Of a stretch of 64,000 nucleotides of DNA, positions 13,243 through 46,739 are shown piece by piece; positions within the stretch are counted from its first letter, which is position 1, and every line of letters starts with the position of its first letter. The stretch is from contig NZ_JAHTIK010000001.1 of assembly GCF_025655475.1 (NCBI RefSeq), positions 5,001,370-5,065,369 of the forward strand. The letters are read 5' to 3'. This DNA is from Kitasatospora sp. DSM 101779 (GTDB lineage: Bacteria > Actinomycetota > Actinomycetes > Streptomycetales > Streptomycetaceae). The position numbers and the translations under genes are program-made. Below the pieces are notes generated by a model. The model was given only the letters and a program-made list of their open reading frames with translations. It was not told where the DNA came from and ran no database searches.

Positions 13243-14307
13243 TTGCGCCGTTCACTGAAGCTCGCCGCGGTAGTGCTCTCGGGTTCCCTGGGCATCGCCT
13301 CGCTCGCCGCTTGCGGCGCAAAGAGCACCGACAACAACACCTCGTCCGGTTCCTCCTCCGGCGCCTCCAGCGTCAAGGTCGGCATGGCCTACGACATCGG
13401 CGGCCGCGGCGACCAGTCGTTCAACGACTCCGCCGCCCGTGGTCTCGACCAGGCCAAGGACCAGCTCGGCGTCCAGGTCACCGAGGCCGAGGCCAAGACC
13501 GGTGAGGCCGAGGCCGACAAGGAGGCCCGCCTCAAGTCGCTGGTCAGCGCCGGCTACAACCCGGTCATCGCCGTCGGCTTCGTGTACCAGGCCGCCGTCG
13601 AGAAGGTCGCCAAGGAGAACCCGAACGTCAAGTTCGCGATCATCGACTCGGCCTCCGACACCCAGCCGAGCAACGTCACCTCGCTGACCTTCTCGGAGCA
13701 GGAGGGCTCGTACCTCGCCGGCGTCGCCGCCGCCTCCAAGAGCAAGGCCAAGCACATCGGCTTCATCGGCGGCGTGCAGTCCGAGCTGATCAAGAAGTTC
13801 GAGGCCGGTTACAAGGCGGGCGCCAAGTCCGTCGACCCGAACATCGTGATCGAGACCACCTACCTCACCACCCCGCCGGACTTCAGCGGCTTCAACGACC
13901 CCGGCAAGGGCAAGGAAGCGGCTCAGGGCCAGCTGGACAAGGGCGCGGACGTCATCTACTCCGCCGCCGGCTCCTCCGGCAACGGCTCGATCGAGGCCGT
14001 CGCGTCCAAGGGCAAGTGGGCCATCGGCGTCGACTCCGACCAGGCCAACCAGCCGGCGCTGTCGAAGTACAAGGCCAACATCCTGACCTCCATGGTCAAG
14101 AACGTGAACGTGGCCGTCTTCGACTACATCAAGGCGTACAAGGACGGCAACCCGCTGACCGGCGTCAAGAACTTCGACCTGAAGGCCGAGGGTGTCTCGC
14201 TGGCCCAGACCGGCGGCTTCCTGAAGGACATCCAGCCGAAGCTCGACGCCGCCACCCAGGCGATCACCTCCGGCGCCACCAAGATCCCCACCACCCCGGA
14301 GAACTGA
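13243..14307 (+). CDS. BMP-family nucleoside-binding lipoprotein of ABC transporter
   Basis: Substrate-binding lipoprotein of a nucleoside ABC importer (BmpA/PnrA family). The TTG at 13243 follows GAAGGAG with an 8-base spacer. The 354-residue product starts with a lipoprotein signal ending SLAAC (Cys24), then a Ser-rich tether and the two-domain binding fold: KVGMAYDIGGRGDQSFND, FAIIDS, FSEQEGSYLAGVAA, and a C-terminal segment ending KIPTTPEN. The next three genes are the ATPase and two permeases, then cdd and deoA, which strongly supports nucleosides as cargo. A hairpin after the stop probably keeps downstream expression lower than that of this binding protein. Confidence 0.93.
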   Translation: MRRSLKLAAVVLSGSLGIASLAACGAKSTDNNTSSGSSSGASSVKVGMAYDIGGRGDQSFNDSAARGLDQAKDQLGVQVTEAEAKTGEAEADKEARLKSLVSAGYNPVIAVGFVYQAAVEKVAKENPNVKFAIIDSASDTQPSNVTSLTFSEQEGSYLAGVAAASKSKAKHIGFIGGVQSELIKKFEAGYKAGAKSVDPNIVIETTYLTTPPDFSGFNDPGKGKEAAQGQLDKGADVIYSAAGSSGNGSIEAVASKGKWAIGVDSDQANQPALSKYKANILTSMVKNVNVAVFDYIKAYKDGNPLTGVKNFDLKAEGVSLAQTGGFLKDIQPKLDAATQAITSGATKIPTTPEN

Positions 14308-14370
14308 TCCGACGCTCCTGACCACCGCCACCTGCCGGCGGTGCCACCGGGGCCGACGACCATCACCGGA

Positions 14371-14410
14371 GGGCCCGGCGGGGCGCGCAGGACGCGTCCC
14401 CGCCGGGCCC
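14371..14410 (+). terminator. Intercistronic attenuator hairpin after the binding-protein gene
   Basis: Perfect 13-bp stem (14371-14383 against 14398-14410) with a 14-base loop, 64 bases after the BMP gene stop and 75 bases before the ATPase. It has no U tract. Its place is typical for differential expression of a binding protein over its transporter. Confidence 0.7.
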
Positions 14411-14484
14411 CGCCCGTTCCACCCACAGACAGAACACCAGGCACTCCGGCGCAACGGTGCGCACGACGACTTCAGGAGATCGCC

Positions 14485-16158
14485 ATCACCGCTTCCGATC
14501 CCGCTCTCGACCAGGGCGGCACCCCCAGCGCGGGGACGGCGACACCGGCCGTCGAACTGCGCGGCATCACCAAGCGCTTCCCCGGCGTCGTGGCCAACCA
14601 CGACATCGACATCACCGTGCGACGCGGCACCGTGCACGCCCTGATGGGCGAGAACGGCGCAGGCAAGTCCACCCTGATGAAGATCCTCTACGGCATGCAG
14701 AAGCCGGACGAGGGGACCATCGCCATCAACGGCAAGCAGGTCCAGCTCAACACCCCGGCCGACGCCATCGACCTCGGCATCGGCATGGTCCACCAGCACT
14801 TCATGCTCGCGGACAACCTGACCGTGTGGGAGAACATCGTCCTCGGCGGCGAGAAGCTCCACGGCATGGGGAGCAAGGCCAAGGCGAAGATCCAGGAGAT
14901 CTCCGACCAGTACGGCCTGGGCGTGCGCCCGGACGCCCTGGTCGAGGACCTGGGCGTCGCCGACCGGCAGCGCGTGGAGATCCTCAAGGTCCTCTACCGC
15001 GGCGCGAACATCCTGATCCTCGACGAGCCGACCGCCGTCCTCGTCCCGCAGGAGGTGGACGCGCTCTTCGACAACCTCCGCGAGCTCAAGGCGGAGGGCG
15101 TCACCGTCATCTTCATCTCCCACAAGCTGCACGAGGTGCTCGCCGTCGCCGACGCGATCAGCGTCATCCGCCGCGGCACCACCGTGGGCGACGCCGACCC
15201 CAAGACCGTCACCGCCCGGCAGCTCGCCGAGATGATGGTCGGCGCCGAGCTCCCCTCGCCGGCGAGCCGCGAGTCGACCGTCATGCCGGACGAGACGCTC
15301 CGCGTCGACGGCCTGCGGATCGCCAAGACCGACGCCGAGGGCATCGAGCGCGTCGTCCTCGACGACATCTCGCTGCGCATCCGCCGCGGCGAGGTGCTGG
15401 GCATCGCCGGCGTCGAGGGCAACGGCCAGGCCGAGCTCGTCGAGGCCATCATGGGCATGCTGCCGCTCGACGCGGGCACCGTGACCCTGGACGGCAAGGA
15501 CGTCACCAACGAGCTCACCCGGGCCCGCCGCGAGGCCGGCATCGGCTACATCCCCGAGGACCGTCACCGCCACGGCCTGCTGCTGGAAGCCCCGCTCTGG
15601 GAGAACCGCATCCTGGGCCACGTGTCCGAGTCGCCCAACTCCCGGGGCATCCTGCTCGACCCGGCGGGTGCCCGGAAGGACACCCAGCGGATCGTCGAGG
15701 AGTACGACGTCCGCACCCCGGGCATCGAGGTCACCGCGGCCTCCCTCTCCGGCGGCAACCAGCAGAAGCTGATCATCGGCCGCGAGATGAGCCACGACCC
15801 GAAGCTGCTGGTCGCGGCCCACCCGACCCGCGGCGTGGACGTCGGCGCGCAGGCCCAGATCTGGGAGCAGATCCGCAAGGCCCAGCGCGAAGGCCTCGCC
15901 GTGCTGCTGATCTCCGCCGACCTCGACGAGCTGATCGGCCTCTCCGACACGATCCGGGTGATCTACCGCGGTCGCCTGGTCGCCGATGCCGACCCGGCCA
16001 CCGTCACCGCCGAGGACCTCGGCACCGCGATGACCGGCGCCGCCCGCGGCCACATCGAGTCCGAGCCCGACGCCGTCGCCGAGCAGAAGGCGACCGCCGC
16101 CGAGGGCACCGAGGCCGCGTCCGACCGTTCCGCCGACGACACGCAGGCGGGGGAGTAA
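14485..16158 (+). CDS. Nucleoside ABC transporter ATP-binding protein (double NBD)
   Basis: Energy-coupling ATPase of the nucleoside importer, with two fused ABC domains as in RbsA/NupA types. Domain 1 (about residues 25-260) has Walker A GENGAGKST and LILDEPTAVL. Domain 2 (about 275-510) has a degenerate Walker A (GVEGNGQAE) and the signature LSGGNQQK, and AHPTRG replaces the usual Walker B end, so one catalytic site is probably impaired, as usual in this family. The likely start is ATC at 14485: AGGAG (14474-14478) sits 6 bases upstream and the homologous reading begins there, yet no ATG, GTG or TTG is available. From that codon the product has 557 residues. Upstream in-frame GTG 14341 would translate through the attenuator hairpin. 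Confidence 0.9.
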   Translation: MTASDPALDQGGTPSAGTATPAVELRGITKRFPGVVANHDIDITVRRGTVHALMGENGAGKSTLMKILYGMQKPDEGTIAINGKQVQLNTPADAIDLGIGMVHQHFMLADNLTVWENIVLGGEKLHGMGSKAKAKIQEISDQYGLGVRPDALVEDLGVADRQRVEILKVLYRGANILILDEPTAVLVPQEVDALFDNLRELKAEGVTVIFISHKLHEVLAVADAISVIRRGTTVGDADPKTVTARQLAEMMVGAELPSPASRESTVMPDETLRVDGLRIAKTDAEGIERVVLDDISLRIRRGEVLGIAGVEGNGQAELVEAIMGMLPLDAGTVTLDGKDVTNELTRARREAGIGYIPEDRHRHGLLLEAPLWENRILGHVSESPNSRGILLDPAGARKDTQRIVEEYDVRTPGIEVTAASLSGGNQQKLIIGREMSHDPKLLVAAHPTRGVDVGAQAQIWEQIRKAQREGLAVLLISADLDELIGLSDTIRVIYRGRLVADADPATVTAEDLGTAMTGAARGHIESEPDAVAEQKATAAEGTEAASDRSADDTQAGE

Positions 16159-16161
16159 TCC

Positions 16162-17316
16162 ATGACCAGTCCCAACCCGCCCGCCAAGCGCTCGTTCGCC
16201 TCGCGGTTCGACGGCGAGAAGATCCTCCTCGCCCTGGCCGCCCCTGTGCTGGCCGTCCTGCTCTCGGTGGCGATCTGCTCCGTCCTGCTCGCCGTCTCCG
16301 GCAAGGACCCGTTCGACGCCTTCGACGTGATGATCCGGTACGGCACCGCGTCCGACGGCCAGGTGCTGACCCTCAACCGGGCCACCGTCTACTACATCGC
16401 CGGTTGCGCCGCGGCGTTCGGCTTCCGGATGAACCTGTTCAACATCGGCGTCGAGGGCCAGTACCGCCTCGGCGTGCTGTTCGCCGCCTACATCGGCAGC
16501 CAGGTCGACCTGCCGTCGTTCATCCAGATCCCGCTGCTGCTCGTCACCGCCATGCTGGTCGGTGGCCTGTGGGCCAGCATCGCCGGCGTGCTCAAGGTCT
16601 ACCGCGGCGTCAGCGAGGTCATCTCGACCATCATGCTGAACGCGATCGCCACCGCCGTCGTCGGCCTGCTGCTCATCCCCGGCCGCTTCGCGCCGGCGAA
16701 GAGCGCCAACGCCAACGCGATCCAGACCGCCCCGGTCTCCGAGTCGAGCCACTTCTTCTCGATCGAGACCGCCGGCGGCACCCTGTGGGGATTCATCTTC
16801 GTCGCGATCCTGATCGGTGTGCTGTTCCAGTTCACGCTGACCCGCACCCGCTTCGGCTTCGACCTGCGCGCCACCGGCCGCTCGGAGACCGCCGCCAAGG
16901 CGTCCGGTGTCAACGTCAAGCGCATGGTGCTGACCAGCATGGCGGTCTCCGGCGCCATCGCCGGTCTCATCGGCATCCCGGAGCTGCTGCAGAGCTCGTT
17001 CTACTTCGGCCAGAGCATCCAGCTGAACCTCGGCTTCATCGGCATCTCGGTGGCGCTGCTCGGACGCAACAGCCCGATCGGCATCGCCTTCTCGGCCCTG
17101 CTCTTCGCCTTCCTCGACGTCTCGGGTACGCAGCTCCCGCTGCACGGTGACTACCCGCAGGAGATCGTCCTCGTCATGCAGGGCACCATCGTCATCTGCG
17201 TCGTCGTCGCCTACGAGCTGGTGCGCCGCTACGGCCTCAAGCGCCAGCAGCAGAAGGTGGGCGCCGAGCTCGCCGCCCAGGCCGCCGCGGCCGCCAACAA
17301 GGAGGTTGCCGCGTGA
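16162..17316 (+). CDS. Nucleoside ABC transporter permease (first)
   Basis: Membrane component of the importer, 384 residues with about nine helices and the BPD_transp_2 pattern (FNIGVEGQYRLGVLFAAYIG, GVSEVISTIMLNAIA, RATGRSETAAKASGVNV). The glycine-rich GVEGQ loop is shared by ribose/nucleoside permeases. The start lies 3 bases after the ATPase stop and its own stop overlaps the next gene by GTGA, so the four transporter genes are one translationally linked unit. Confidence 0.93.
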   Translation: MTSPNPPAKRSFASRFDGEKILLALAAPVLAVLLSVAICSVLLAVSGKDPFDAFDVMIRYGTASDGQVLTLNRATVYYIAGCAAAFGFRMNLFNIGVEGQYRLGVLFAAYIGSQVDLPSFIQIPLLLVTAMLVGGLWASIAGVLKVYRGVSEVISTIMLNAIATAVVGLLLIPGRFAPAKSANANAIQTAPVSESSHFFSIETAGGTLWGFIFVAILIGVLFQFTLTRTRFGFDLRATGRSETAAKASGVNVKRMVLTSMAVSGAIAGLIGIPELLQSSFYFGQSIQLNLGFIGISVALLGRNSPIGIAFSALLFAFLDVSGTQLPLHGDYPQEIVLVMQGTIVICVVVAYELVRRYGLKRQQQKVGAELAAQAAAAANKEVAA

Positions 17317-18578
17317 GCACCGCCACCACCGCCCGGCCGAAGACGCCGGGAGCCCCGACCAAGAAGCCGAAGATCACCTGGCCGGTCGTCCTCCTGCTGA
17401 TCGCGGGCGCGCTCGTCCTGGTCTCCGCGGTCGGCGCGGCCACCGACAACCACGGCCTGACCGCCTCCGGCCAGATCAACGCCGCCCTCGGCGCCGCCGT
17501 CCCGATCGCGATGGCCGGTCTCGGCGGTCTGTGGTCGGAGCGGGCCGGCGTGGTCAACATCGGCCTCGAAGGCATGATGGTCGCCGGCACCTTCTGCGGC
17601 GCCTGGGTCGGCTTCCTGGTCAACCCCTGGGTCGGCCTGCTCGCCGGTATGGCCGGCGGCGCCCTCGGCGGCCTGCTGCACGCGCTGGTCACCGTCACCT
17701 TCGGCGTCGACCACATCGTCTCCGGCGTCGGCATCAACCTGCTGATCCCGGGCATCTGCGCCTACGTGAACCGGATCTACTACCGGGACTACGTGGCGAA
17801 CGGCGCCGGCGCCAACCAGTCGCCGCCCGCCGACTCGCTGCCCACCATCACCATCCCCGGGCTGTCGGACTGGCTGCAGGACATCGAGAAGCACCACTGG
17901 TTCCTGGTCTCCGACGTGGCCGGCATCGTCGGCGGCGTGGTCACCGACCTGTCGGTGGTCATCGTGATCGCCGCGGCGCTGATCGTCGCCAGCTACTTCC
18001 TGCTCTGGCGCACCGTCTTCGGTCTGCGGCTGCGCTCCTGCGGCGAGAACCCGACCGCCGCCGAGACGCTGGGCGTCAACGTCTACAAGTACAAGTACTT
18101 CGCGGTCGTCGCCTCGGGCGCGTTCGCCGGTCTCGCCGGCGCGTACCTCTCGCTGGTCGCGGCGCACTTCTACAAGGACGGCCAGACCCAGGGCCGGGGC
18201 TTCATCGGCCTCGCCGCGATGATCTTCGGCAACTGGATGCCGGGCGGTCTCGCCGTCGGCTCGGGCCTGTTCGGCTTCACCGACAGCCTCCAGCTGCGCG
18301 ACGCGGACAACGTCCACGTCCTGCTGCTGGTCATCGCGCTCGCCATGGGCCTGCTCGCGATGTGGCACGGCTACCGCCGCAAGTACACCACCGCGGTCAT
18401 CAGCCTGGTGGTCGCCGGCGGCCTCGGCCTCTGGTACGCGCTGACCGACTCGGTGGAGCGCCCGCTGATCGTCGCCACGCCGTACGTGATCACGCTCGTC
18501 GTGCTCGCGCTCGCCTCGCAGCGCCTGCGTCCGCCGAAGGCCGACGGCCAGATCTACCGCAAGGGCGAAGGCAAGTGA
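17313..18578 (+). CDS. Nucleoside ABC transporter permease (second)
   Basis: Partner permease of 421 residues, the NupC/NupQ-like half of the channel. It shows AAVPIAMAGLGGLWSERAGVVNIGLEGMM, the family hallmark (here split: AVPIAMAGLGGLWSERAG then VNIGLEGMM), then GVDHIVSGVGINLL and RSCGENPTAAETLGVNV. The GTG start overlaps the previous stop by four bases, and its stop overlaps the cdd start by four bases, tying uptake directly to cytidine deamination. Confidence 0.93.
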   Translation: MSTATTARPKTPGAPTKKPKITWPVVLLLIAGALVLVSAVGAATDNHGLTASGQINAALGAAVPIAMAGLGGLWSERAGVVNIGLEGMMVAGTFCGAWVGFLVNPWVGLLAGMAGGALGGLLHALVTVTFGVDHIVSGVGINLLIPGICAYVNRIYYRDYVANGAGANQSPPADSLPTITIPGLSDWLQDIEKHHWFLVSDVAGIVGGVVTDLSVVIVIAAALIVASYFLLWRTVFGLRLRSCGENPTAAETLGVNVYKYKYFAVVASGAFAGLAGAYLSLVAAHFYKDGQTQGRGFIGLAAMIFGNWMPGGLAVGSGLFGFTDSLQLRDADNVHVLLLVIALAMGLLAMWHGYRRKYTTAVISLVVAGGLGLWYALTDSVERPLIVATPYVITLVVLALASQRLRPPKADGQIYRKGEGK

Positions 18579-18970
18579 CGACCGCACCGGCACCCGACTG
18601 GGAGGCGCTGCGGGAGGCCGCGCGCGGCGCCATGGCGCACGCCTACGCCCCCTACAGCAAGTTCCCGGTCGGGGCGGCGGCCCTGGTCGACGACGGACGG
18701 ATCGTCACCGGCTGCAACGTGGAGAACGCCTCGTACGGACTCGGCCTGTGCGCCGAGTGCGGCCTGGTCTCCGCGCTGCACGCCGGCGGTGGCGGCCGGC
18801 TGACCGCCTTCACCTGCGTGGACGGGTCCGGCACCCTGCTGATGCCGTGCGGCCGCTGCCGGCAGCTGCTGTACGAGCACGGCGGGCCGGAGCTGCTGGT
18901 GGACCTGCCGTCCGGGGTGAAGACCATGGACGAGGTCCTGCCCGACGCCTTCGGGCCGGAGCGGCTCTAG
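18575..18970 (+). CDS. cdd: Cytidine deaminase
   Basis: Zinc enzyme that converts cytidine and deoxycytidine to uridine and deoxyuridine for salvage or catabolism. The 131-residue protein has CNVENASYGLGLCAECG, with the catalytic Glu in the C-A-E triad, and MPCGRCRQLL with the two remaining zinc Cys residues; this is the short homotetrameric type. The GTG start is translationally coupled to the preceding permease gene (GTGA overlap), so deamination is co-expressed with import. Confidence 0.96.
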   Translation: MTTAPAPDWEALREAARGAMAHAYAPYSKFPVGAAALVDDGRIVTGCNVENASYGLGLCAECGLVSALHAGGGGRLTAFTCVDGSGTLLMPCGRCRQLLYEHGGPELLVDLPSGVKTMDEVLPDAFGPERL

Positions 18971-18982
18971 CACCTCCCGTTG

Positions 18983-18994
18983 TTACGCGCGTAG
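18983..18994. promoter_or_regulatory. Putative nucleoside-regulon operator (deoA copy)
   Basis: TTACGCGCGTAG, 11 of 12 positions of the CTACGCGCGTAG palindrome, 86 bases before deoA. A TAGAGT -10-like box (18992-18997) overlaps its right half, so bound protein would block initiation. It implies deoA has its own promoter in addition to read-through from the transporter operon. Confidence 0.7.
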
Positions 18995-19034
18995 AGTGTC
19001 GCGGAGGGCCCCGATCCGGGTCCGCCGCGGCACT
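18995..19034 (+). terminator. Inverted repeat between cdd and deoA
   Basis: Ten-bp arms (18995-19004 and 19025-19034) with one G-T pair and extra internal GGCCC/GGGTCC pairing. It may end the transporter-cdd transcript or fold in the deoA leader. No U tract is present. Confidence 0.5.
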
Positions 19035-19080
19035 CTTCGCATTCCCGCACCTGAGCACCCCTGCACCTCTTGGAGACCCC

Positions 19081-20358
19081 ATGGACGCCCCCTCCGTCAT
19101 CAGGACCAAGCGCGACCGCGGAGAGCTGACCGACGGCCAGATCGACTGGGTCATCGACGCGTACACCCGCGGCGAGGTCGCCGACGAGCAGATGTCGGCC
19201 CTGGCCATGGCCATCCTGCTGAACGGCATGAACCTCCGCGAGATCAGCCGCTGGACGGACGCGATGATCCGCTCCGGCGTCCGGATGGACTTCTCCTCGC
19301 TCGGCGTGCCCACCTCCGACAAGCACTCCACCGGTGGCGTCGGCGACAAGATCACCCTGCCGCTCGCCCCGCTGGTCGCCGCCTGCGGCGCCGCCGTCCC
19401 GCAGCTCTCCGGCCGCGGCCTCGGCCACACCGGCGGCACCCTCGACAAGCTGGAGTCGATCCCCGGCTGGCGCGCCCTGCTCTCCAACGAGGAGATGCTC
19501 CAGGTGCTGAACGACACCGGCGCCGTCATCTGCGCCGCCGGCGACGGCCTCGCCCCCGCCGACAAGAAGCTCTACGCGCTCCGAGACGTCACCGGCACCG
19601 TCGAGGCGATCCCGCTGATCGCCTCCTCGATCATGTCGAAGAAGATCGCCGAGGGCACCGGGGCGCTCGTCCTCGACGTCAAGGTCGGCTCCGGCGCCTT
19701 CATGAAGAACCTCGCCGACGCCCAGGAACTCGCCCGCACCATGGTCGGCCTCGGCAAGGCGGCCGGCGTCAACACCGTCGCCCTGCTCACCGACATGTCC
19801 ACCCCGCTCGGCCTGACCGCCGGCAACGCGCTGGAGGTCCGCGAGTCGGTCGAGGTGCTGGCCGGCGGCGGCCCCGCCGACGTCGTCGAGCTCACCCTGG
19901 CGCTGGCCCGCGAGATGCTCGACGCGGCCGGCGTGCACGGCAAGGACCCGGCCGACGCGCTGCGGGACGGCTCCGCCATGGACCACTGGCGCCGCATGAT
20001 CGCCGCCCAGGGCGGCGACGTCGACGCGCCGCTGCCGGTCGCCCGCGAGCAGCACGTGATCCCCGCCCCCGCCTCCGGCGTGCTGACCGCCCTCGACGCC
20101 TACGCCGTCGGCGTCTGCGCCTGGCGCCTGGGCGCCGGCCGCGCCCGCAAGGAGGACCCGGTGCAGGCCGGCGCCGGCGTCGAGATGCACGCCAAGCCCG
20201 GCGACACCGTCGTGGCCGGCCAGCCGCTGCTGACCCTGCACACCGACACCCCCGAGCGCTTCGACTACGCGATCGAGGCCCTCAAGGACGGCATCACGGT
20301 CGCCCCCCAGGGCACCGCCTTCACCCCGAACCCGATCGTCCTCGACCGCATCGCCTGA
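19081..20358 (+). CDS. deoA: Thymidine/pyrimidine-nucleoside phosphorylase
   Basis: Phosphorolyses thymidine or deoxyuridine to the base and deoxyribose-1-phosphate. The 425-residue protein has the three domains of the family. KHSTGGVGDKITLPLAPLV binds phosphate and SGRGLGHTGGTLDKLESIPG is the family signature; KVGSGAFMK follows, and the C-terminal PYNP domain ends with VVAGQPLLTLHTD. ATG at 19081 follows TTGGAG. Its product needs a phosphopentomutase to feed DeoC; the mutase at 43931-45628 is a candidate. Confidence 0.96.
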   Translation: MDAPSVIRTKRDRGELTDGQIDWVIDAYTRGEVADEQMSALAMAILLNGMNLREISRWTDAMIRSGVRMDFSSLGVPTSDKHSTGGVGDKITLPLAPLVAACGAAVPQLSGRGLGHTGGTLDKLESIPGWRALLSNEEMLQVLNDTGAVICAAGDGLAPADKKLYALRDVTGTVEAIPLIASSIMSKKIAEGTGALVLDVKVGSGAFMKNLADAQELARTMVGLGKAAGVNTVALLTDMSTPLGLTAGNALEVRESVEVLAGGGPADVVELTLALAREMLDAAGVHGKDPADALRDGSAMDHWRRMIAAQGGDVDAPLPVAREQHVIPAPASGVLTALDAYAVGVCAWRLGAGRARKEDPVQAGAGVEMHAKPGDTVVAGQPLLTLHTDTPERFDYAIEALKDGITVAPQGTAFTPNPIVLDRIA

Positions 20359-36532: not shown

Positions 36533-37435
36533 TCAGATGCCCATCGGGTGCCAGACCGTCTTGGTCTCCAGGAAGGAGGTCAGCCGCTTGGTGCCCGGCG
36601 CCTGGGTCCAGTCCGCGGCGGCCGGGTCGGCGGCCGGCCGCAGGACGCGCTTGAGGGTCTCGGCGGCGGCGGCCTCCAGGGCGGCGGGCGAGCCCGGCCC
36701 GTCCTGGTGCACCGCGCCGGTCAGGTCGAGACCGTTGACGTCCTGGTGGGACGCCAGGGTGGGGGCGATGTCGGCCGTGCGGCCGGACAGCACGTTGACC
36801 ACACCGCCGGGCAGGTCGGAGGTGGCGAGCACCTCGCCCAGCGACAGCGCCGGCAGCGGCGCCTCGGCGGCGGCGGCGACCACGGCGGTGTTGCCGGTGG
36901 CGATCACCGGGGCGAGCACCGACACCAGGCCGAGGAAGGAGAAGCCGTGGCCGGCCTGCGGCGCCAGCACACCGACCACACCGGTCGGTTCGGGCGTCGA
37001 CAGGTTGAAGTACGGCCCGGCGACCGGGTTGGCGTTGCCGGCGACCTGGGCGACCTTGTCCGTCCAGCCCGCATACCAGACCCAGCGGTCGATCGCGGCG
37101 TCCACCAGCGCGGCGGCCTTCTTGACGCCCAGGCCCTCGGCGGCGGCCACCTCGGCGGCGAACTGCTCGCGGCGGCCCTGCAGCATCTCGGCGACCCGGT
37201 ACAGCACCTGGCCGCGGTTGTACGCGGTGGTGCCGGACCAGCCCTTGACCGCGGCGCGCGCGGCCACGACGGCGTCCCGGGTGTCCTTGCGGGTGCCGAG
37301 CGGCGCGTTGGCGAGCCACTGGCCCTTGGAGTCGGTCACCTCGTACACCCGCCCGCTCTCGGAGCGCGGGAACTTCCCGCCGACGTACAGCTTGTAGGTC
37401 TTGAGGACGTCAAGACGCAGCGACACATCAGACAT
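36533..37435 (-). CDS. Aldehyde dehydrogenase-like pseudo-subunit lacking the catalytic domain (ALDH16 C-terminal half type)
   Basis: Protein of 300 residues homologous to the NAD-domain half of ALDHs: KLYVGGKFPRSESGRVYEVT, AARAAVKGWSGTTAYNRGQVLYR, GVVGVLAPQAG. At the point where ALDHs have FTGS...ELGGK and later the catalytic Cys, the sequence instead passes through GLDLTGAVHQDG and ends, after about 50 residues, with FLETKTVWHPMGI, a tail that in full ALDHs is the C-terminal oligomerisation strand. The catalytic domain is thus missing while the tail is kept. It starts inside the last codons of the active ALDH gene (8-base overlap). This matches the inactive second half of ALDH16 proteins; I infer a stable complex with its neighbour. 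Confidence 0.8.
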   Translation of the reverse strand: MSDVSLRLDVLKTYKLYVGGKFPRSESGRVYEVTDSKGQWLANAPLGTRKDTRDAVVAARAAVKGWSGTTAYNRGQVLYRVAEMLQGRREQFAAEVAAAEGLGVKKAAALVDAAIDRWVWYAGWTDKVAQVAGNANPVAGPYFNLSTPEPTGVVGVLAPQAGHGFSFLGLVSVLAPVIATGNTAVVAAAAEAPLPALSLGEVLATSDLPGGVVNVLSGRTADIAPTLASHQDVNGLDLTGAVHQDGPGSPAALEAAAAETLKRVLRPAADPAAADWTQAPGTKRLTSFLETKTVWHPMGI

Positions 37436-38930
37436 CTCGGGCCTCGACATTCAGGTAGGGCTCCAGACCGTGCCGGCCACCCTCGCGGCCGTAACCCGAC
37501 TCCTTGTAGCCGCCGAACGGCGAGGCCGGGTCGAACTTGTTGAAGGTGTTGGCCCAGACCACACCGGCCTTGAGCCGGCTCGCCGTCCACAGGATGCGCG
37601 AGCCCTTCTCCGTCCAGATGCCGGCGGAGAGGCCGTACGGGGTGTTGTTGGCCTTCTCGACCGCCTCGGCCGGGGTACGGAAGGTCAGCACCGACAGCAC
37701 CGGGCCGAAGATCTCCTCGCGGGCGATCCGGTGGGCCTGCGAGACGCCGGTGAACAGGGTCGGGCGGAACCAGTAGCCGGTGCCCGGCAGGTCGCAGGAG
37801 GGCGACCAGCGCTCGGCACCCTCGGCCTCGCCGGCGTCGGTCAGCTCGGTGATCCGGGACAGCTGCGCCGAGGAGTTGATGGCACCGATGTCGGTGTTCT
37901 TGTCCAGCGGGTCGCCGACCCGCAGGGTCGACATCCGGCGCTTGAGCGCCTCCAGGAACTCGTCCTGGACCGACTCCTGGACGAGCAGCCGGGAGCCCGC
38001 GCAGCAGACGTGGCCCTGGTTGAAGAAGATGCCGTTGACGATGCCCTCGACGGCCTGGTCGATCGGCGCGTCGTCGAAGACGATGTTCGCGGCCTTGCCG
38101 CCGAGCTCCAGGGAGAGCTTGGTACGGGTGCCGGCCAGCTGGCGGGCGATCGAGCGGCCGACCGGGGTGGAGCCGGTGAAGGCGACCTTGTCCACGTCCG
38201 GGTGGGCGGTCAGCGCGGCGCCGGTGCGGCCGTCGCCGGTGACGATGTTGACGACGCCCTTCGGCAGGCCCGCCTGGCGGCAGATCTCGGCGAAGCGCAG
38301 CGCGGTCAGCGGGGTGGTCTCGGCCGGCTTGAGGACGACCGTGTTGCCGGTGGCCAGCGCCGGGGCGATCTTCCACGCCAGCATCATCAGCGGGAAGTTC
38401 CACGGGATGACCTGGGCGGCGACGCCGACCGGCTTCGGGTTGGGGCCGTAGCCCGCGTAGTCCAGCTTGTCCGCCCAGCCCGCGTAGTAGAAGAACCACG
38501 CGGCGACCATCGGCACGTCGAAGTCGCGGGTCTCGCGGATCGGCTTGCCGTTGTCGATCGACTCCAGCACGGCCAGCTCGCGGGAGCGCTCCTGGACGAT
38601 CCGGGCGATCCGGAACAGGTACTTGGCGCGCTCGCTGCCCGGCAGCGCCGACCAGTCGGCGAAGGCCCTGCGGGCGGCGGCGACCGCGCGGTCGACGTCC
38701 TCGCCGGTGCCCTGCGCGAACTCCGCCAGCACCTGCTCGGTGGCCGGGTTGACGGTCTTCAGGGCCTCGCTGCCGGAGGAGTCGACGAACTCGCCGCCGA
38801 TGAAGTGTCCGTACGAGGTCGCGATGTCGCCGGCCGCGGCCGGGGACTCCGGAGCGGGGGCGTAGGTGAAGAGGCCGCCGCGGGGGGCCTGCGCCACGGG
38901 TGCGTCGGTCTTCTTGGTGTTCTTGGCCAT
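37428..38930 (-). CDS. Aldehyde dehydrogenase (catalytic partner)
   Basis: NAD(P)-dependent aldehyde dehydrogenase of 500 residues. Motifs in order: VIPWNFPLMML, GNTVVLKPAETTP, VAFTGSTPVGRSIA, the general-base Glu in SLELGGKAANIV, catalytic Cys in NQGHVCCAGSRL, and EEIFGPVLSVLTF. It ends GLEPYLNVEARDV, short of the extra tail that the neighbour carries. It lies 5 bases after deoC, whose product is acetaldehyde, so oxidation of acetaldehyde (and possibly other aldehydes) is the most likely job. An N-terminal Ala/Pro-rich extension of about 35 residues precedes the fold. Confidence 0.93.
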   Translation of the reverse strand: MAKNTKKTDAPVAQAPRGGLFTYAPAPESPAAAGDIATSYGHFIGGEFVDSSGSEALKTVNPATEQVLAEFAQGTGEDVDRAVAAARRAFADWSALPGSERAKYLFRIARIVQERSRELAVLESIDNGKPIRETRDFDVPMVAAWFFYYAGWADKLDYAGYGPNPKPVGVAAQVIPWNFPLMMLAWKIAPALATGNTVVLKPAETTPLTALRFAEICRQAGLPKGVVNIVTGDGRTGAALTAHPDVDKVAFTGSTPVGRSIARQLAGTRTKLSLELGGKAANIVFDDAPIDQAVEGIVNGIFFNQGHVCCAGSRLLVQESVQDEFLEALKRRMSTLRVGDPLDKNTDIGAINSSAQLSRITELTDAGEAEGAERWSPSCDLPGTGYWFRPTLFTGVSQAHRIAREEIFGPVLSVLTFRTPAEAVEKANNTPYGLSAGIWTEKGSRILWTASRLKAGVVWANTFNKFDPASPFGGYKESGYGREGGRHGLEPYLNVEARDV

Positions 38931-38935: not shown

Positions 38936-39928
38936 TCAGTCCACCGTCACGTAGTCAGGGCCGGAGTACCGTCCGGTGGTCAGCTTCTGGCGCTGCATCA
39001 GCAGGTCGTTGAGCAGGCTGGAGGCGCCGAAGCGGAACCAGTGCGGGCTCAGCCAGTCGTCGCCGAGCGTCTCGTTGACCATCACCAGGTACTTCATGGC
39101 GTCCTTGGTGGTCTTGATGCCGCCGGCCGGCTTCACGCCCACCTGCACGCCGGTCGCGGCGCGGAAGTCGCGGACCGCCTCCAGCATCAGCAGGGTCACC
39201 GGGGGAGTGGCGTTCACCGCGACCTTGCCGGTGGACGTCTTGATGAAGTCCGCGCCGGCCAGCATCGCCAGCCAGGAGGCGCGGCGGACGTTGTCGTACG
39301 TCTGCAGCTCGCCGGTCTCGAAGATCACCTTGAGGTGGGCGGAGGTGCCGTCGGGGCGGCGGCAGGCCTCCTTGACCGCGGTGATCTCGTTGAAGACGTC
39401 CAGGTAGCGGCCGGACAGGAAGGCGCCGCGGTCGATCACCATGTCGATCTCGTCGGCGCCGGCGGCGACCGCGTCCGCGGTGTCGGCGAGCTTCACCGGC
39501 AGGGCCGCGCGGCCGGCCGGGAAGGCGGTGGCGACCGAGGCGACCTGGATGTCGGTGCCGCGCAGCGCCTCCTTGGCGGTGGCGACCATGTCCGGGTAGA
39601 CGCAGATCGCCGCGACCCGCGGGGTCGTCGGGTCGGACGGGTCGGGGTTACGGCCCTTGATGCACAGCGAGCGCACCTTGCCGACCGTGTCCGCGCCTTC
39701 CAGCGTGGTCAGGTCGATCATCGAGATCGCCAGGTCGATGGCGTACGCCTTCGCCGTGGTCTTGATCGAACGGGTGCCGAGGGTGGCGGCGCGAGCCTCC
39801 AGGCCGACCTGGTCGACGCCGGGCAGGCCGTGCAGGAAGCGGCGGAGCGAGGCCTCGGACGCCGCGACGTCCGCGAGGCCGCTGCCCGCAGCGCCGGGGG
39901 CGTGGGCTGCAAGAGTGGACATAGTCAC
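38936..39928 (-). CDS. deoC: Deoxyribose-phosphate aldolase
   Basis: Cleaves 2-deoxyribose-5-phosphate into acetaldehyde and glyceraldehyde-3-phosphate, the last step of deoxynucleoside breakdown. The 330-residue class I aldolase shows AICVYPDMV, VASVATAFPAG, EIDMVIDRGAF, the Schiff-base Lys in FIKTSTGKV and the second Lys in VGVKPAGGIKT. It is longer than E. coli DeoC because of a roughly 50-residue N-terminal part, as in other actinomycetes. Start: a TATGCT box on the complement lies exactly 6 bases before GTG 39928, so a leaderless transcript beginning there is likely; ATG 39922, two codons on, is the conventional choice. Confidence 0.94.
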   Translation of the reverse strand: MTMSTLAAHAPGAAGSGLADVAASEASLRRFLHGLPGVDQVGLEARAATLGTRSIKTTAKAYAIDLAISMIDLTTLEGADTVGKVRSLCIKGRNPDPSDPTTPRVAAICVYPDMVATAKEALRGTDIQVASVATAFPAGRAALPVKLADTADAVAAGADEIDMVIDRGAFLSGRYLDVFNEITAVKEACRRPDGTSAHLKVIFETGELQTYDNVRRASWLAMLAGADFIKTSTGKVAVNATPPVTLLMLEAVRDFRAATGVQVGVKPAGGIKTTKDAMKYLVMVNETLGDDWLSPHWFRFGASSLLNDLLMQRQKLTTGRYSGPDYVTVD

Positions 39929-39941
39929 CAGACCAGCATAT

Positions 39942-39953
39942 CTACGCGCGTAG
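39942..39953. promoter_or_regulatory. Nucleoside-regulon operator and promoter of deoC (divergent from TetR gene)
   Basis: Perfect CTACGCGCGTAG, followed on the minus strand by A and a TATGCT -10 box, then 6 bases to GTG 39928. The palindrome abuts the -10 and lies 127 bases from the TetR gene start on the other side, so it might serve both. Confidence 0.8.
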
Positions 39954-40032
39954 CGATCCGCTAGGGAGGGGTCGGTTTTCGATGCCGGACCGAGATGTGG
40001 CACCCCGCCGCCCCCGAGTGCCCCCGGCGGGC

Positions 40033-40073
40033 GGGAAGAATGGCCTGGTGACCGGGAAGAATGCCCTGGTGAC
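40033..40073 (+). repeat. Tandem 21-bp duplication of a translation-initiation region
   Basis: Two near-identical units, G/CCGGGAAGAATG(G/C)CCTGGTGAC, each hold a GGGAAG site and a GTG nine bases later. The two GTG codons (40048, 40069) are in the same frame. Likely a slippage duplication that added seven residues. Confidence 0.75.
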
Positions 40074-40680
40074 TTCCGCCGCCGAACAGCCCGCACCCCG
40101 CAAGAAGACCGGCCGGCGCCCCGGCGGGGCGGACACCCGGCGGACGGTGCTGGAGGCCGCGCGGGCCGAGTTCGCCGCCCGCGGCTACCAGAAGGCCAGC
40201 ATGCGGGCGATCGCCCGGGCCGCCGGCGTGGACGCCGCCCTGCTGCACCACTACTTCGGCAGCAAAGACAAACTCTTCCTCGCCGCGCTGGAGTTCCCCG
40301 TCGACCCGCGGCTGATGGTCGAGCAGGTGCTGGCCGGCGACCGCGCGGAGGTCGGCGAGCGGGTCGCCCGCTTCGTCCTCGCACTGTGGGAGCAGCCGAC
40401 CGTCCGCGACCGGCTGCTCGCCGTGCTGCGGACGGCCGCCGCCTCCGAGGAGGTGGCCGGGCTGATGCGCGGCTTCATGGTCACCGAGCTGGTCTCGCGA
40501 CTCGCCGTCGGCCTCGACGTGCCGCAGCCGGAGCTCCGCGTCGAGCTGGTGATGTCGCAGATCCTCGGCCTCGCCATGGCCCGGTACGTGATCGCCGTCG
40601 AGCCGCTGGCCTCCGCCCCGGCCGAGGAGTTGCTGCCGCTGCTGGCCCGCGCGGTGCAGGGGTACCTCGTCGAGGCCTGA
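40069..40680 (+). CDS. TetR-family transcriptional regulator
   Basis: Regulator of about 203 residues when started at GTG 40069. The N-terminal DNA-binding domain reads TRRTVLEAARAEFAARGYQK, then ASMRAIARAAGVDAALLHHYFGSKDKLFLAAL (cited as two overlapping parts in the family), with the recognition helix at AALLHHYFGSK. The C-terminal ligand domain is of the common actinomycete type. The upstream 21-bp sequence holding a GGGAAG ribosome site and GTG is tandemly duplicated, so GTG 40048 is an equally formed start seven codons earlier; an ATG at 39982 has poor support. It faces deoC across a nucleoside-type operator, so it could be the regulon repressor, but the exporter genes downstream are also possible targets. 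Confidence 0.87.
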   Translation: MTSAAEQPAPRKKTGRRPGGADTRRTVLEAARAEFAARGYQKASMRAIARAAGVDAALLHHYFGSKDKLFLAALEFPVDPRLMVEQVLAGDRAEVGERVARFVLALWEQPTVRDRLLAVLRTAAASEEVAGLMRGFMVTELVSRLAVGLDVPQPELRVELVMSQILGLAMARYVIAVEPLASAPAEELLPLLARAVQGYLVEA

Positions 40681-40771
40681 GGGGTCCCTCCGAGGGGGGC
40701 GCCACGCGGGGGCGCGTGGGGGCACCTCCCGGCCGGAGGTTTGGGGAGAACCGTGCCGGCTCACGGATGCA

Positions 40772-41440: not shown

Positions 41441-41535
41441 GCCCGGTCCGCACCCCGGTCGGCCCCGGTTTGTCCCCGGTTCGCCCTGCACCACCGTGCC
41501 CGCTCTCTTGACGGCCGGGGTGTCGGGCGTAAAAC

Positions 41536-41549
41536 TCATCACATGATGA
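41536..41549. promoter_or_regulatory. Palindrome over the ABC exporter start codon
   Basis: TCATCA-CA-TGATGA, perfect 6-bp arms overlapping the ATG at 41543. A repressor bound here would block initiation. The protein that binds is unknown. Confidence 0.4.
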
Positions 41550-42304
41550 ATTCCAAGGCGGGGCCCGGCCCCGCGATCCGGACCACCGGCCTCACCGTGG
41601 TCCGCGGCGGACGCCCCGTCCTGCACGGCCTCGACCTGGAGATCCCGCGCGGATCGGTGACCGGACTGCTCGGCCCCAGCGGCTGCGGCAAGACCACCCT
41701 GCTGCGCTCGGTCGTCGGTGTGCAGCGCACCGCCGGAGGCGCCGTCGAGGTGCTCGGCCGCCCGGCCGGCGACGCCGCGCTGCGCCACCGCGTCGGGTAC
41801 GTCACCCAGGCGCCCTCCGTCTACGCCGACCTCACCGTCACCGAGAACCTCGACTACTTCGCCGCCGTCCTCGGCGCCCCGAAGGGCGACCCGGAGCGGG
41901 TGATCCGCCAGGTCGGCCTGACCGGCCACGAGAACGACCCCGCCGGCCGGCTCTCCGGCGGCCAGCGCGCCCGCGTCTCGCTCGCCGCCGCCCTGCTCGG
42001 CGCCCCCGAGCTCCTCGTCCTGGACGAACCCACCGTCGGCCTCGACCCCGTGCTCCGCCAGGACCTCTGGCAGCTCTTCCGCGGCCTCGCCGAGGACGGC
42101 GCCACCCTGCTGGTCTCCAGCCACGTCATGGACGAGGCGACCCGCTGCGACCGCCTGCTGCTGATGCGCGACGGCCGCCTGCTCGCCCACGACACCCCGG
42201 CCGCCCTGCTCGCCGCCACGGGGGCCGCCGACATCGACAGCGCCTTCCTCCGCCTGGTCGAGGACACCCCCCGCACCGCCGACACCGTGGAGACCGGCCG
42301 ATGA
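41543..42304 (+). CDS. ABC-2 type exporter ATP-binding protein
   Basis: ATPase of 253 residues in the DrrA/CcmA-like group of exporters. Walker A GPSGCGKTTLL, Q-loop YVTQAPSVYADLT, signature LSGGQRARVSLA, Walker B LLVLDEPTVGLDP and the switch His in LLVSSHVMDEA are all intact. No ribosome site is visible before ATG 41543, so translation may be leaderless. Its stop overlaps the permease start by ATGA, so the two make one transporter, possibly for drugs or lipids. Confidence 0.92.
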   Translation: MMNSKAGPGPAIRTTGLTVVRGGRPVLHGLDLEIPRGSVTGLLGPSGCGKTTLLRSVVGVQRTAGGAVEVLGRPAGDAALRHRVGYVTQAPSVYADLTVTENLDYFAAVLGAPKGDPERVIRQVGLTGHENDPAGRLSGGQRARVSLAAALLGAPELLVLDEPTVGLDPVLRQDLWQLFRGLAEDGATLLVSSHVMDEATRCDRLLLMRDGRLLAHDTPAALLAATGAADIDSAFLRLVEDTPRTADTVETGR

Positions 42305-43038
42305 ACACCCGGCGCACCCTCGCCACCGCCCGCCGCGTCCTCGCCCAGCTGCGCCACGACCCGCGCACCCTCGCGATGCTGCTGGTCGTCCCCTGCGTGC
42401 TGCTGACCCTGCTGCGCTACATGTACGACGGGCAGCCGGACACCTTCGACCGGATCGGCCCCGCCCTGCTCGGGATCTTCCCGCTGCTGGTGATGTTCCT
42501 GGTCACCTCCGTCGCCATGCTGCGCGAGCGCACCACCGGCACCCTGGAGCGGCTGCTCACCATGCCGCTCGGCAAGCTGGACCTGCTGCTCGGCTACGCC
42601 CTCGCCTTCGGCCTGGTCGCCCTCGTCCAGGCGGCACTCGCCTCCGCGCTGACCATCGGCCTGCTCGGCCTCGACGTCGCCGGACCCACCTGGCTGCTGT
42701 TCGCCGTCGCGGTCGGCGACGGCCTGCTCGGCATGGCGCTCGGCCTGCTGGTCTCCGCGTTCGCCGCCACCGAGTTCCAGGCCGTGCAGTTCCTGCCCGC
42801 CGTGCTGCTGCCGCAGTTCCTGCTCTGCGGCCTGTTCGTGCCCCGCGAGCAGATGGCGGACGTGCTGCGCTGGGCCTCCGACGTGATGCCGCTCTCCTAC
42901 GCCGTCGACGCGATGGGCCGGCTCACCGTGCACAGCGGAGTCGGCAGCGAGGTGGTCACGGACCTCGCGGTCATCGCCGGCTGCGCCCTGCTCGCCCTCG
43001 GCCTCGGCGCGGCCACCCTCCGTCGCCGCACGCCCTGA
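42301..43038 (+). CDS. ABC-2 type exporter permease
   Basis: Membrane partner of the preceding ATPase, 245 residues with six helices typical of ABC2_membrane proteins: an N-terminal cytoplasmic ARRVLAQLRHDPRTLAMLLV segment, the RERTTGTLERLLTMPLGKL coupling helix and a Pro-rich LLPQFLLCGLFVPREQMADVL loop. The substrate cannot be told from sequence. The last helix ends in a short RRRTP tail. Confidence 0.9.
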   Translation: MNTRRTLATARRVLAQLRHDPRTLAMLLVVPCVLLTLLRYMYDGQPDTFDRIGPALLGIFPLLVMFLVTSVAMLRERTTGTLERLLTMPLGKLDLLLGYALAFGLVALVQAALASALTIGLLGLDVAGPTWLLFAVAVGDGLLGMALGLLVSAFAATEFQAVQFLPAVLLPQFLLCGLFVPREQMADVLRWASDVMPLSYAVDAMGRLTVHSGVGSEVVTDLAVIAGCALLALGLGAATLRRRTP

Positions 43039-43930: not shown

Positions 43931-45628
43931 TCAGGCGCCGATGCCTGCGGCAGCCGCGAGGTCCCGCTTGATGCCGCCGAGCAGGACGGAGGCCCGCTCG
44001 CGGGCGTCCGCCAGTGCGGCGGCGTCGGCGACCGGGAGGACGACCTCCAGGTAGCACTTGAGCTTGGGTTCCGTGCCGGAGGGCCGGACCACGATCCGGG
44101 CCGAGCGGACGTCCTCGCCGGCCAGGTAGTAGCGCAGGCCGTCGGTGGCCGGCAGGTCGGCGGAGCCGGCGGTGAGGTCGTCGGCACGGGTGACCTGCAG
44201 CCCGGCCAGCACGGTCGGCGGCCGCTCGCGCAGCCGGTGCATCGCCTCGGCGATCAGCGAGAGGTCGTCGACCCGGGCGGAGAGCTGGTCGGTGGCGTGC
44301 AGGCCGTGCTCCAGCGCCAGGTCGTCCAGCAGGTCGGTGAGGGTGCGGCCGGACTGCTTGAGGGTGGCGGCGAGTTCGGCGATCAGCAGGGCGGCGGTGA
44401 TGCCGTCCTTGTCGCGGACGCCCTCGGGGTCGACGCAGTAGCCGAGCGCCTCCTCGTAGCCGTAGCGCAGGCCCTCGGCGCGGGAGATCCACTTGAAGCC
44501 GGTGAGCGTCTCGGTGTAGCCGAGGCCCGCGGCGGCGGCGATCCGGCCGAGCAGGGTGGAGGAGACGATGGTGGTGGCGAAGGTGCCGCCGACCCGCTTG
44601 GCGACCAGCGCCGAGCCGAGCAGGGCGCCGACGTCGTCGCCGCGCAGCATCCGCCAGCCGCCGTTGTCCGGGACGGCCACCGCGCAGCGGTCGGCGTCCG
44701 GGTCGTTGGCGATGACGATGTCGGGGCTAGCGGCGGCGGCCGTCCGGAAGGACAGGTCCATCGCGCCGGGCTCCTCCGGGTTGGGGAAGGCCACGGTCGG
44801 GAAGTCCGGATCGGGCTCGGCCTGCTCGGCGACCACGGTGGGCGCGGGGAAGCCGGCCTGCTTGAAGGCGGCGAGCAGGACGTCCCGGCCGACGCCGTGC
44901 AGCGGCGTGTAGACCACGTCCAGTGCGCGGGGGCCGGCCGGCTCCAGCACGGTGACCGCGCGGTCCAGGTAGGCCTCCACGACGTCGTCGCCGAGCACCT
45001 CCCAGCCCTGCTCGGCGAGCGGGACGTCGGCGAGGGCGCCGATCGCGTCGATCTCGGCGGCGATCTCGACGTCCGCGGGCGGGACGATCTGCGAGCCGTC
45101 GCCCAGGTAGACCTTGTAGCCGTTGTCCTGCGGCGGGTTGTGGCTGGCCGTCACCGTGACGCCGGCCGCGGCGCCGAGGTGGCGGATGGCGAAGGCGAGC
45201 ACCGGGGTGGGCAGCGGCCGCGGCAGCAGCGCGGCGCGCAGGCCGGCGCCGACCACGGCGGCGGCGGTGTCCCGGGCGAAGTCGTACGACTTGTGCCGGG
45301 CGTCGTAGCCGATCACCACGAGGTCGCCCAGCTGCGGGTTCTTGCGCACGTACGCGGCGAGGCCGGCGGCGGCGCGGATCACCACGGCGCGGTTCATCCG
45401 CATCGGGCCGGCGCCGAGTTCGCCGCGCAGGCCCGCGGTGCCGAACTGGAGGCGGCCGGCGAAGCGCTCGGCCAGCCGGGACCAGGCGATCCGCTCGCCG
45501 GACTCGGCGTCGGGGCCCTCGGCGGCGGCGAGCAGCTCGGTGAGCTCCGTGCGGGTCTGCGGGTCGGGATCCTCCGCGAGCCACGCGCGGGCCCGGGCGA
45601 GGAGGTCGGTGGTGGGTGCCTGCGCCAT
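43931..45628 (-). CDS. Phosphosugar mutase (PGM/PMM superfamily), probable phosphopentomutase or phosphoglucomutase
   Basis: Alpha-D-phosphohexomutase superfamily enzyme of 565 residues, the PgcA/PGM2-like branch. Active-site phosphoserine is in TASHNPPQDNGYKVY, metal-binding loop NDPDADRCAVAV, sugar loop ETLTGFKWISRAEGLRYGYEEALGY (cited in part) and phosphate loop RPSGTEPKLKCY. Databases usually call it phosphomannomutase, but it lies 103 bases downstream of pnp on the same strand, and human PGM2 of this branch works on (deoxy)ribose-1-phosphate. I infer it may convert the pentose-1-phosphates made by PNP and DeoA to the 5-phosphates needed by DeoC, since no deoB gene is seen in the window. 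Confidence 0.85.
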   Translation of the reverse strand: MAQAPTTDLLARARAWLAEDPDPQTRTELTELLAAAEGPDAESGERIAWSRLAERFAGRLQFGTAGLRGELGAGPMRMNRAVVIRAAAGLAAYVRKNPQLGDLVVIGYDARHKSYDFARDTAAAVVGAGLRAALLPRPLPTPVLAFAIRHLGAAAGVTVTASHNPPQDNGYKVYLGDGSQIVPPADVEIAAEIDAIGALADVPLAEQGWEVLGDDVVEAYLDRAVTVLEPAGPRALDVVYTPLHGVGRDVLLAAFKQAGFPAPTVVAEQAEPDPDFPTVAFPNPEEPGAMDLSFRTAAAASPDIVIANDPDADRCAVAVPDNGGWRMLRGDDVGALLGSALVAKRVGGTFATTIVSSTLLGRIAAAAGLGYTETLTGFKWISRAEGLRYGYEEALGYCVDPEGVRDKDGITAALLIAELAATLKQSGRTLTDLLDDLALEHGLHATDQLSARVDDLSLIAEAMHRLRERPPTVLAGLQVTRADDLTAGSADLPATDGLRYYLAGEDVRSARIVVRPSGTEPKLKCYLEVVLPVADAAALADARERASVLLGGIKRDLAAAAGIGA

Positions 45629-45731: not shown

Positions 45732-46553
45732 TCAGATCCGCTCAAGGACCTTCGCGAGCAGCGCGCCCATCCGCTCGGCGCTGGCCTTGCCGGCCTCCAG
45801 CACCTCTTCGTGGTTGAGCGGCTCGCCGGTGATGCCGGCGGCCAGGTTGGTCACCAGGGAGATGCCGAGCACCTCGGAGCCGGCCTCGCGGGCGGCGATG
45901 GCCTCCAGGGTGGTCGACATGCCGACCAGCTCTCCGCCGATCACCCGGGCCATGTTGACCTCGGCCGGGGTCTCGTAGTGCGGGCCGCGGAACTGCACGT
46001 AGACGGCCTCGTCGAGGCTCGGGTCGACCTCGCGGCACAGGGTGCGCAACCGCTTGGAGTAGAGGTCGGTGAGGTCGACGAAGTTGGCGCCGACGATCGG
46101 CGAGTCGGCGGTGAGGTTGATGTGGTCGCTGATCAGGACCGGCTGGCCCGGGGTCCAGCCCTCGCGGAGGCCGCCGCAGCCGTTGGTGAGGACGATGATC
46201 CCGCAGCCCGCCGCGGCGGCGGTGCGGACGCCGTGCACCACGGTGGCCACGCCGTGGCCCTCGTAGTAGTGGTTGCGGCCGAGGAAGATCAGGGCGCGCT
46301 TCTCGCCGATCTTCACGGAGCGGATACGGCCGGCGTGCCCGGCGACGGCGGGGGCGGGGAAGCCCGGGAGCTCGGTGACCGGGAACTCGGCCACGGTCTC
46401 GCCCAGGGCGTCGGCGGCCGGCACCCAGCCGGAGCCCATGACGAGGGCGACGTCGTGGCGGTCGACGCCGGTCAGCTCGCGGAGGCGGTCGGCGGCGGCC
46501 CGGGCGGCGGCGTAGGGGTCGGCGGAGACGACCGACTGAGGAGATGCGTTCAC
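45732..46553 (-). CDS. pnp: Purine-nucleoside phosphorylase
   Basis: Trimeric-type PNP of 273 residues that phosphorolyses inosine, guanosine and their deoxy forms. Motifs are [18 protein letters not shown] (phosphate), [26 protein letters not shown] with the purine-binding Glu, [10 protein letters not shown] and [10 protein letters not shown] with the catalytic Asn. The start GTG 46553 lies 7 bases after a TATCCT box, so a leaderless mRNA is likely; a longer frame to 46595 would run through the operator. A perfect nucleoside-regulon palindrome covers the -35 region. Confidence 0.95.
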
Positions 46554-46578
46554 ACGACCGAGGATAGACAAGATTCGC

Positions 46579-46590
46579 CTACGCGCGTAG
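46579..46590. promoter_or_regulatory. Nucleoside-regulon operator of pnp
   Basis: Perfect CTACGCGCGTAG overlapping the -35 position of a promoter whose TATCCT -10 box (minus strand, about 46561-46566) lies 7 bases before the GTG start at 46553. Confidence 0.8.
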
Positions 46591-46739
46591 ACCATCCCGC
46601 CAAGACGCGCCGGATCGTTACCGGAATCATCCGGAAATACCGTGACAGGGCGCCTGCGGACGCCCCGGTCCGTCGGATCGCACGAGGCCGCGGCGCCGGA
46701 TCGGCGCGCGGCCGCGCCGCGCCGCGCGGCGGCAGCGGC

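Follow-up and report, generated by a model that had tools for sequence, protein, structure and literature searches.

The 64,000-nucleotide stretch of Kitasatospora sp. DSM 101779 analysed here (assembly GCF_025655475.1, contig NZ_JAHTIK010000001.1, positions 5,001,370 to 5,065,369; below, the window) carries a gene for a phosphosugar mutase beside pnp. On the computational evidence, the encoded protein is very probably a PGM2-type member of the α-phosphohexomutase superfamily whose main job is that of a phosphopentomutase. An earlier note on this DNA had suggested it as the missing phosphopentomutase, and the proposal is supported by co-occurrence of the mutase with deoC, by gene clusters of relatives, by a sugar-binding loop devoid of serine and by the lack of a link to manB. 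The mutase is probably the missing step in the use of nucleoside sugars, because in Actinomycetes devoid of deoB it is kept and lost together with the genes of nucleoside breakdown.

In the proposed pathway Pnp and DeoA would supply ribose-1-phosphate and deoxyribose-1-phosphate, which the mutase would turn into the corresponding 5-phosphates; these would enter the pentose phosphate pathway, the deoxy form being passed to DeoC. By analogy with the superfamily, the phosphate of phospho-Ser162 would be transferred to the pentose-1-phosphate; the resulting bisphosphate would flip and Ser162 would take back a phosphate, now that of C1, with Mg2+ bound by D309, D311 and D313. The substrate, direction and activity of the enzyme are those we infer, and some side activity with hexose phosphates is likely.

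Canonical DeoB and the genes that accompany the mutase

DeoB, which catalyses the reaction proposed here for the mutase, is a metalloenzyme of unrelated fold. The genome of DSM 101779 (8.5 Mb, 99.95% complete) gave no match to the DeoB profile TIGR01696 at E ≤ 0.001, the mutase itself included, while the positive controls E. coli and B. subtilis were matched. The earlier note had seen no deoB in the window and had named a copy elsewhere as the finding that would speak against its proposal; none appeared in the whole genome, and no match over the cut-off was found in any of the 196 genomes sampled from the class. Matches at E ≤ 0.001 occurred in 14 of them, seven at 18–23 bits and seven at 58–78 bits. 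The latter represent a divergent DeoB-like metalloenzyme, and the same seven genomes hold both the mutase and deoC. The one such protein checked, from locus L175, passes the model NF009049/PRK12383 "phosphopentomutase" (354.6 vs 254 bits); its gene adjoins an ORF for a BPD_transp_2 permease on the opposite strand. TIGR01696 detects such divergent proteins in other genomes, and it detected none in DSM 101779.

Presence of the relevant genes in the 196 genomes was scored by searches with cut-offs that we set unequally (E ≤ 1e-45 for the mutase, 1e-15 for deoC, 1e-60 for deoA, 1e-40 for pnp and 1e-100 for manB), giving 164, 162, 162, 158 and 180 positive genomes, respectively. Mutase and deoC occur together in 162 genomes and are both missing from 32; two genomes (G265, G337) have the mutase only and none has deoC only (Fisher p = 9.6e-35). 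Because relatives share history, the labels were also shuffled within families, 20,000 times. In the seven families of mixed state the two genes agree in 59/60 genomes against a shuffled mean of 42.3, and no shuffle was as good. For deoA the counts are 161 both, 3 mutase only, 1 deoA only and 31 neither, with agreement in 56/60 genomes of the mixed families (0/20,000 shuffles as good); for pnp they are 152, 12, 6 and 26, with agreement in 54/60 (1/20,000). The mutase shows no association with manB (150, 14, 30 and 2; Fisher p = 1; 45/60 in the mixed families, 3,060/20,000 shuffles as good). Co-occurrence with deoC, deoA and pnp and no link to manB is what is predicted of a phosphopentomutase, not of a phosphomannomutase or a general phosphoglucomutase. 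Even the small genomes of family f65 (1.2–2.2 Mb) retain mutase and deoC in 17/17 cases. Seven of the 14 genomes that have the mutase and no manB match at E ≤ 1e-100 belong to a single family, f73.

The arrangement of the genes points in the same direction. In a sample of the whole phylum a pnp match lies on the same strand within 2 kb of the mutase in 13/13 genomes of the class. We further compared 80 named loci, classified by the residue that follows the Glu-Glu pair of the sugar-binding loop: 51 actinobacterial Ala-type, 23 Ser-type and 6 Ala-type whose phylum is another one or not assigned. Among the actinobacterial loci, pnp is found on the same strand within 3 kb in 36/51, deoC within 7 kb in 23/51 and either of them in 44/51; some gene of nucleoside catabolism is present in 47/51. 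None of these genes lies near the mutase in the Ser-type loci (0/23) or in the Ala-type loci of other phyla (0/6). Genome G133 encodes two mutases, of which one adjoins pnp and the other lies directly between deoC and deoD. In the deoC–mutase–deoD cluster (L069) deoC and the mutase overlap by 4 nt and 100 nt separate the mutase from deoD; the order in E. coli is deoC-deoA-deoB-deoD. A metagenome-assembled genome (MAG) of Mycobacterium has udp, deoC and the mutase in a row, separated by 14 and 2 nt. Both linkage to and co-occurrence with deoC, pnp and deoA, as expected of a phosphopentomutase, were found within the class and not in the loci examined outside it.

The sugar-binding loop and related enzymes

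The mutase is encoded by an intact ORF of 565 amino acids with an ATG start, and a GGAG begins 12 nt ahead of it. All four Pfam PGM_PMM domains (I–IV) score above cut-off, and the phosphoserine, metal, sugar and phosphate loops read TASHNP, DPDADR, GYEEALGY and RPSGTEPKLK, which places the protein in the α-D-phosphohexomutase superfamily; Ser162 of the first loop is presumably the catalytic residue. The AlphaFold model is of high quality (pLDDT 95.3, pTM 0.93) and all 50 matches listed by Foldseek against the PDB are α-phosphohexomutases. Since such enzymes of every substrate match alike, the structure comparison was discarded as a guide to substrate. Identification by a family model alone was discarded as well: the NCBIfam scan gave matches below cut-off only. 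The ManB model NF007088 reached 58 bits against a curated cut-off of 618, which does not place the protein in ManB. A search of its own genome with the mutase finds only the mutase itself.

The residue after the Glu-Glu pair is Ala394 (EEALG), in place of the serine of PgcA-like enzymes. Alanine occupies this position in 80/80 Ala-type rows of the alignment and serine in 31/31 Ser-type rows; as the labels are defined from this very position, independent support for the split comes from the tree only. There, a single branch sets 80/81 Ala-type rows apart from the 31 Ser-type rows (Shimodaira–Hasegawa-like approximate likelihood-ratio test 100, by a quick method). The two types differ also at positions 145, 246, 308 and 395; Asn308 is found in 72/80 Ala-type rows and Thr in 28/31 Ser-type rows. 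The nearest row to the window mutase is from Kitasatospora (84% identity over 551 columns). The single exception to the split is a Fusobacterium mutase (L082, 5995-7686, + strand), which falls among the Ser-type rows; it has the Ala-type residue at 3/5 distinguishing positions and at a fourth an Ile, as in some Ala-type rows. This may be a case of convergence or of a misplaced long branch. The earlier note had assigned the protein to a "PgcA/PGM2 branch", which can be refined: the tree sets the PgcA-like rows apart, and the mutase has neither an EES loop nor a place among them.

Publications are cited here by PMC number. As compared with the published description (PMC5570346), the mutase shares with human PGM2, a phosphopentomutase, and with the PGM2 subfamily (cd05799) the DPDADR loop and two glutamates with no serine after them. 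It differs just before the glutamates, having YGYEE instead of FAFEE, a motif described for human-type sequences; no PGM2 is among the structure-search matches. According to the same source, PGM2 lacks a serine that PGM2L1 has, its absence may go with pentose use, and it is left open there whether bacterial PGM2-type enzymes are glucose mutases. We consider it very improbable that the mutase is a PgcA-like phosphoglucomutase or, as PGM2L1 or Slr1334, a glucose-1,6-bisphosphate synthase making the activator of other mutases. Such a function would agree with the common superfamily and DPDADR loop, with the close kinship of PGM2 and PGM2L1 (PMC5570346) and with the retention of an Ala-type enzyme beside deoB in Vibrio and Shewanella, which suggests a different role there. 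Against it stand Ala394, a site occupied by Ser in the examined PgcA-like rows and reportedly also in PGM2L1 (PMC5570346), and the position of Slr1334 in another subfamily, cd05800 (PMC9426568); co-loss with deoC is not expected of a general activator.

B. subtilis PgcA belongs to the same superfamily and reportedly shares 29% identity with PmmB (cg0788) of C. glutamicum (PMC3755335), but PgcA is a phosphoglucomutase with glucosamine side activity (PMC6797236). It was compared with the mutase through three Bacillaceae relatives, all with Ser in the loop, one of them encoded directly after manA with galU further on.

Phosphopentomutases on this fold are already known from human, Thermococcus and yeast, and one is proposed for Mollicutes. 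Yeast Pgm3/Prm15 belongs to the PGM2 subfamily and has the phosphohexomutase fold. It is the phosphoribomutase in vivo (PMC4039369). TK1777 of Thermococcus kodakarensis combines phosphopentomutase function with the phosphohexomutase fold, TXSHNP and DXDXDR (PMC11641776); its structure 9ix8 is rank 11 of the 50 listed matches to our model (TMt 0.82, 23% identity), below hexose mutases both here and in another structure search. Unlike the mutase, it has 445–449 residues, and its authors place it with the phosphoglucosamine mutases of archaeal type. In JCVI-syn3A, deoB/0733 (PGMT/PPM) is a phosphohexomutase-type gene beside deoC, which a pyrimidine nucleoside phosphorylase gene also adjoins in the parent genome, and the phosphopentomutase function was proposed on such grounds (PMC6609329); this Mollicutes enzyme, likened here by description only, is assumed to be both phosphoglucomutase and phosphopentomutase. 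A literature search, mostly of non-subscription journals, found no bacterial PGM2-type enzyme assayed or claimed to be a phosphopentomutase. The new element is the class-wide evidence for the actinobacterial branch.

Observations that weigh against the assignment

Several observations weigh against the phosphopentomutase assignment. In the phylum sample deoB (at least 240 bits) occurs in 2/41 genomes with a PGM2-like match of at least 250 bits vs 64/108 without one (p = 2e-10; 4 of the 66 deoB matches fall below the curated cut-off). This exclusion is clustered by family and was dropped as proof; co-occurrence with deoC across the class was therefore used instead. The control genome of C. glutamicum, which has deoC and no deoB, also gives no match to the families used for deoA (TIGR02644) and pnp (TIGR01697). 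Furthermore, the mutase gene is often located near deoC, where the two can be lost in a single deletion. This physical linkage would suit an explanation to which we give hardly any credence, namely that there is no dedicated phosphopentomutase, that pentose-1-phosphates only run backwards for salvage or are dephosphorylated, and that the co-loss stems from proximity to deoC. However, deoA is co-lost too despite its distance of ~24 kb in the window, in other relatives the mutase forms distinct clusters with deoD, udp and deoC, and the small genomes of f65 keep the pair.

Outside the class the picture is different. Ala-type mutases are carried by Vibrio, Photobacterium and Shewanella (L078, L079, L080, L088-L091), and in the four Vibrio and Shewanella genomes of L088-L091 they coexist with deoB (4/4). 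The Ala-type loop alone is therefore no proof of the role and was dropped as such, and the mutase is not always the only phosphopentomutase of its genome. No pnp, deoC or deoA lies near the Vibrio and Shewanella loci examined; in Vibrio sp. HDW18 the gene adjoins aroG. More generally, 28 loci from outside the class have no pnp, deoC, deoA or deoD within ~7 kb (less at some contig ends), and 26/28 of these genomes lack a strong deoB. When genomes are counted by loop type, many of them MAGs and all of unstated completeness, deoB is over the cut-off in 0/25 actinobacterial Ala-type genomes (one with a divergent match of 66.5 bits) and 0/2 other Ala-type ones. Ser-type genomes have it in 7/11 Bacillota and in 0/8 Bacteroidota, Chlorobiota and Chlamydiota (mostly MAGs), a further reason not to treat the loop as proof.

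The annotated function would be that of a second phosphomannomutase (PmmB/ManB2) feeding GDP-mannose, and we consider it to have a very small chance of being right. The presumed orthologue of the window mutase in Streptomyces coelicolor is SCO4916. This protein has been named as a candidate for an alternative phosphomannomutase (PMC5982138). When pmmB of M. tuberculosis was overexpressed in M. smegmatis, the lysate showed phosphomannomutase activity (~0.6 mU/mg, as for ManB), and in a pmmB mutant of M. smegmatis both the arabinose and the mannose of the lipoglycan were down to half (PMC3229593). The assays described in the excerpts of that work concern the GDP-mannose pathway, none being on pentose phosphates, and for this reason it does not settle the main role of PmmB. 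The loss of arabinose might conceivably come through a poorer supply of ribose-5-phosphate; mannose also fell. Against the annotation, a manB is present in DSM 101779 (755.7 bits) and in 30/32 class genomes without the mutase, manB and the mutase are not associated, no mannose gene is among the identified neighbours in the window, of which pnp and, at a greater distance, deoC are the closest, and side activities are known in the superfamily (PMC6797236).

With the phosphopentomutase assignment retained, a wider reading stands at about even chances: that the PGM2-type enzyme (Ala after the Glu pair, Asn before DPDADR) does the DeoB step throughout Actinomycetes, that mycobacterial and corynebacterial PmmB is mainly a misnamed phosphopentomutase, and that the Ser/Ala switch sets hexose or pentose use and was reached again in fusobacteria.

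Genes of the window and biological meaning

The window contains pnp, deoA and deoC, each over its family cut-off, and, as the earlier note had read, the mutase follows pnp on the same strand (Table 1). A pattern scan of the 103-nt gap between them found no terminator-like site. The deoC gene shares the strand of the mutase and lies 3.5–4 kb downstream; because the family match covers only residues 221–444 of its ORF, translation probably begins at a more internal codon. Opposite-strand genes for a TetR regulator and an ABC-2 type transporter permease (39982-43038, +) separate the two. Aldehyde dehydrogenase-like ORFs (36533-38930, −), the second a partial match, lie directly downstream of deoC and could dispose of the acetaldehyde made by DeoC. 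The transporter beside deoA, 25–31 kb from the mutase, may serve nucleoside uptake.

Table 1. Features of the window and, where a locus is named, of relatives
Feature	Position	Strand	Basis
PGM2-type phosphosugar mutase, proposed phosphopentomutase	43931..45628	-	ORF, Pfam, AlphaFold, Foldseek
Putative catalytic Ser162 in TASHNP, phosphoserine loop	45143..45145	-	invariant in alignment A1
Metal loop D309-P-D-A-D-R314, Asn308 just before	44687..44704	-	sequence and alignment
Sugar-binding loop E392-E393-A394, Ala in place of PgcA-like Ser	44447..44455	-	alignment
Phosphate-binding loop R515-P-S-G-T-E-P521	44066..44086	-	sequence and alignment
pnp, purine nucleoside phosphorylase	45732..46595	-	TIGR01698, 328.7 vs cut-off 302.6 bits
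deoC, deoxyribose-phosphate aldolase (ORF)	38936..40384	-	TIGR00126, 177.8 vs cut-off 117.3 bits
Aldehyde dehydrogenase immediately downstream of deoC	37428..38930	-	none above cut-off among the 25 family matches listed
deoA, thymidine phosphorylase (ORF)	18748..20358	+	NF004490, 637.3 vs cut-off 269 bits; match from residue 112
BMP-type ABC transporter beside deoA: binding protein, ATPase, two permeases	13243..18578	+	below model cut-offs; BPD_transp_2 in last ORF
Divergent DeoB-like protein, L172	1441-3264	-	TIGR01696, 58–78 bits
Divergent DeoB-like protein, L175	736-2034	+	TIGR01696, 58–78 bits

If the assignment is true, it fills a gap in nucleoside catabolism of a large bacterial class and explains how its members can exploit the sugar moiety of the building blocks of DNA and RNA. 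The common annotation as phosphomannomutase would be corrected, and what pmmB mutants show in lipoglycan and ribose supply might call for a different interpretation. It would also settle what PMC5570346 leaves undecided about bacterial PGM2-type enzymes, predicting two kinds of bacterial enzyme told apart by one loop residue.
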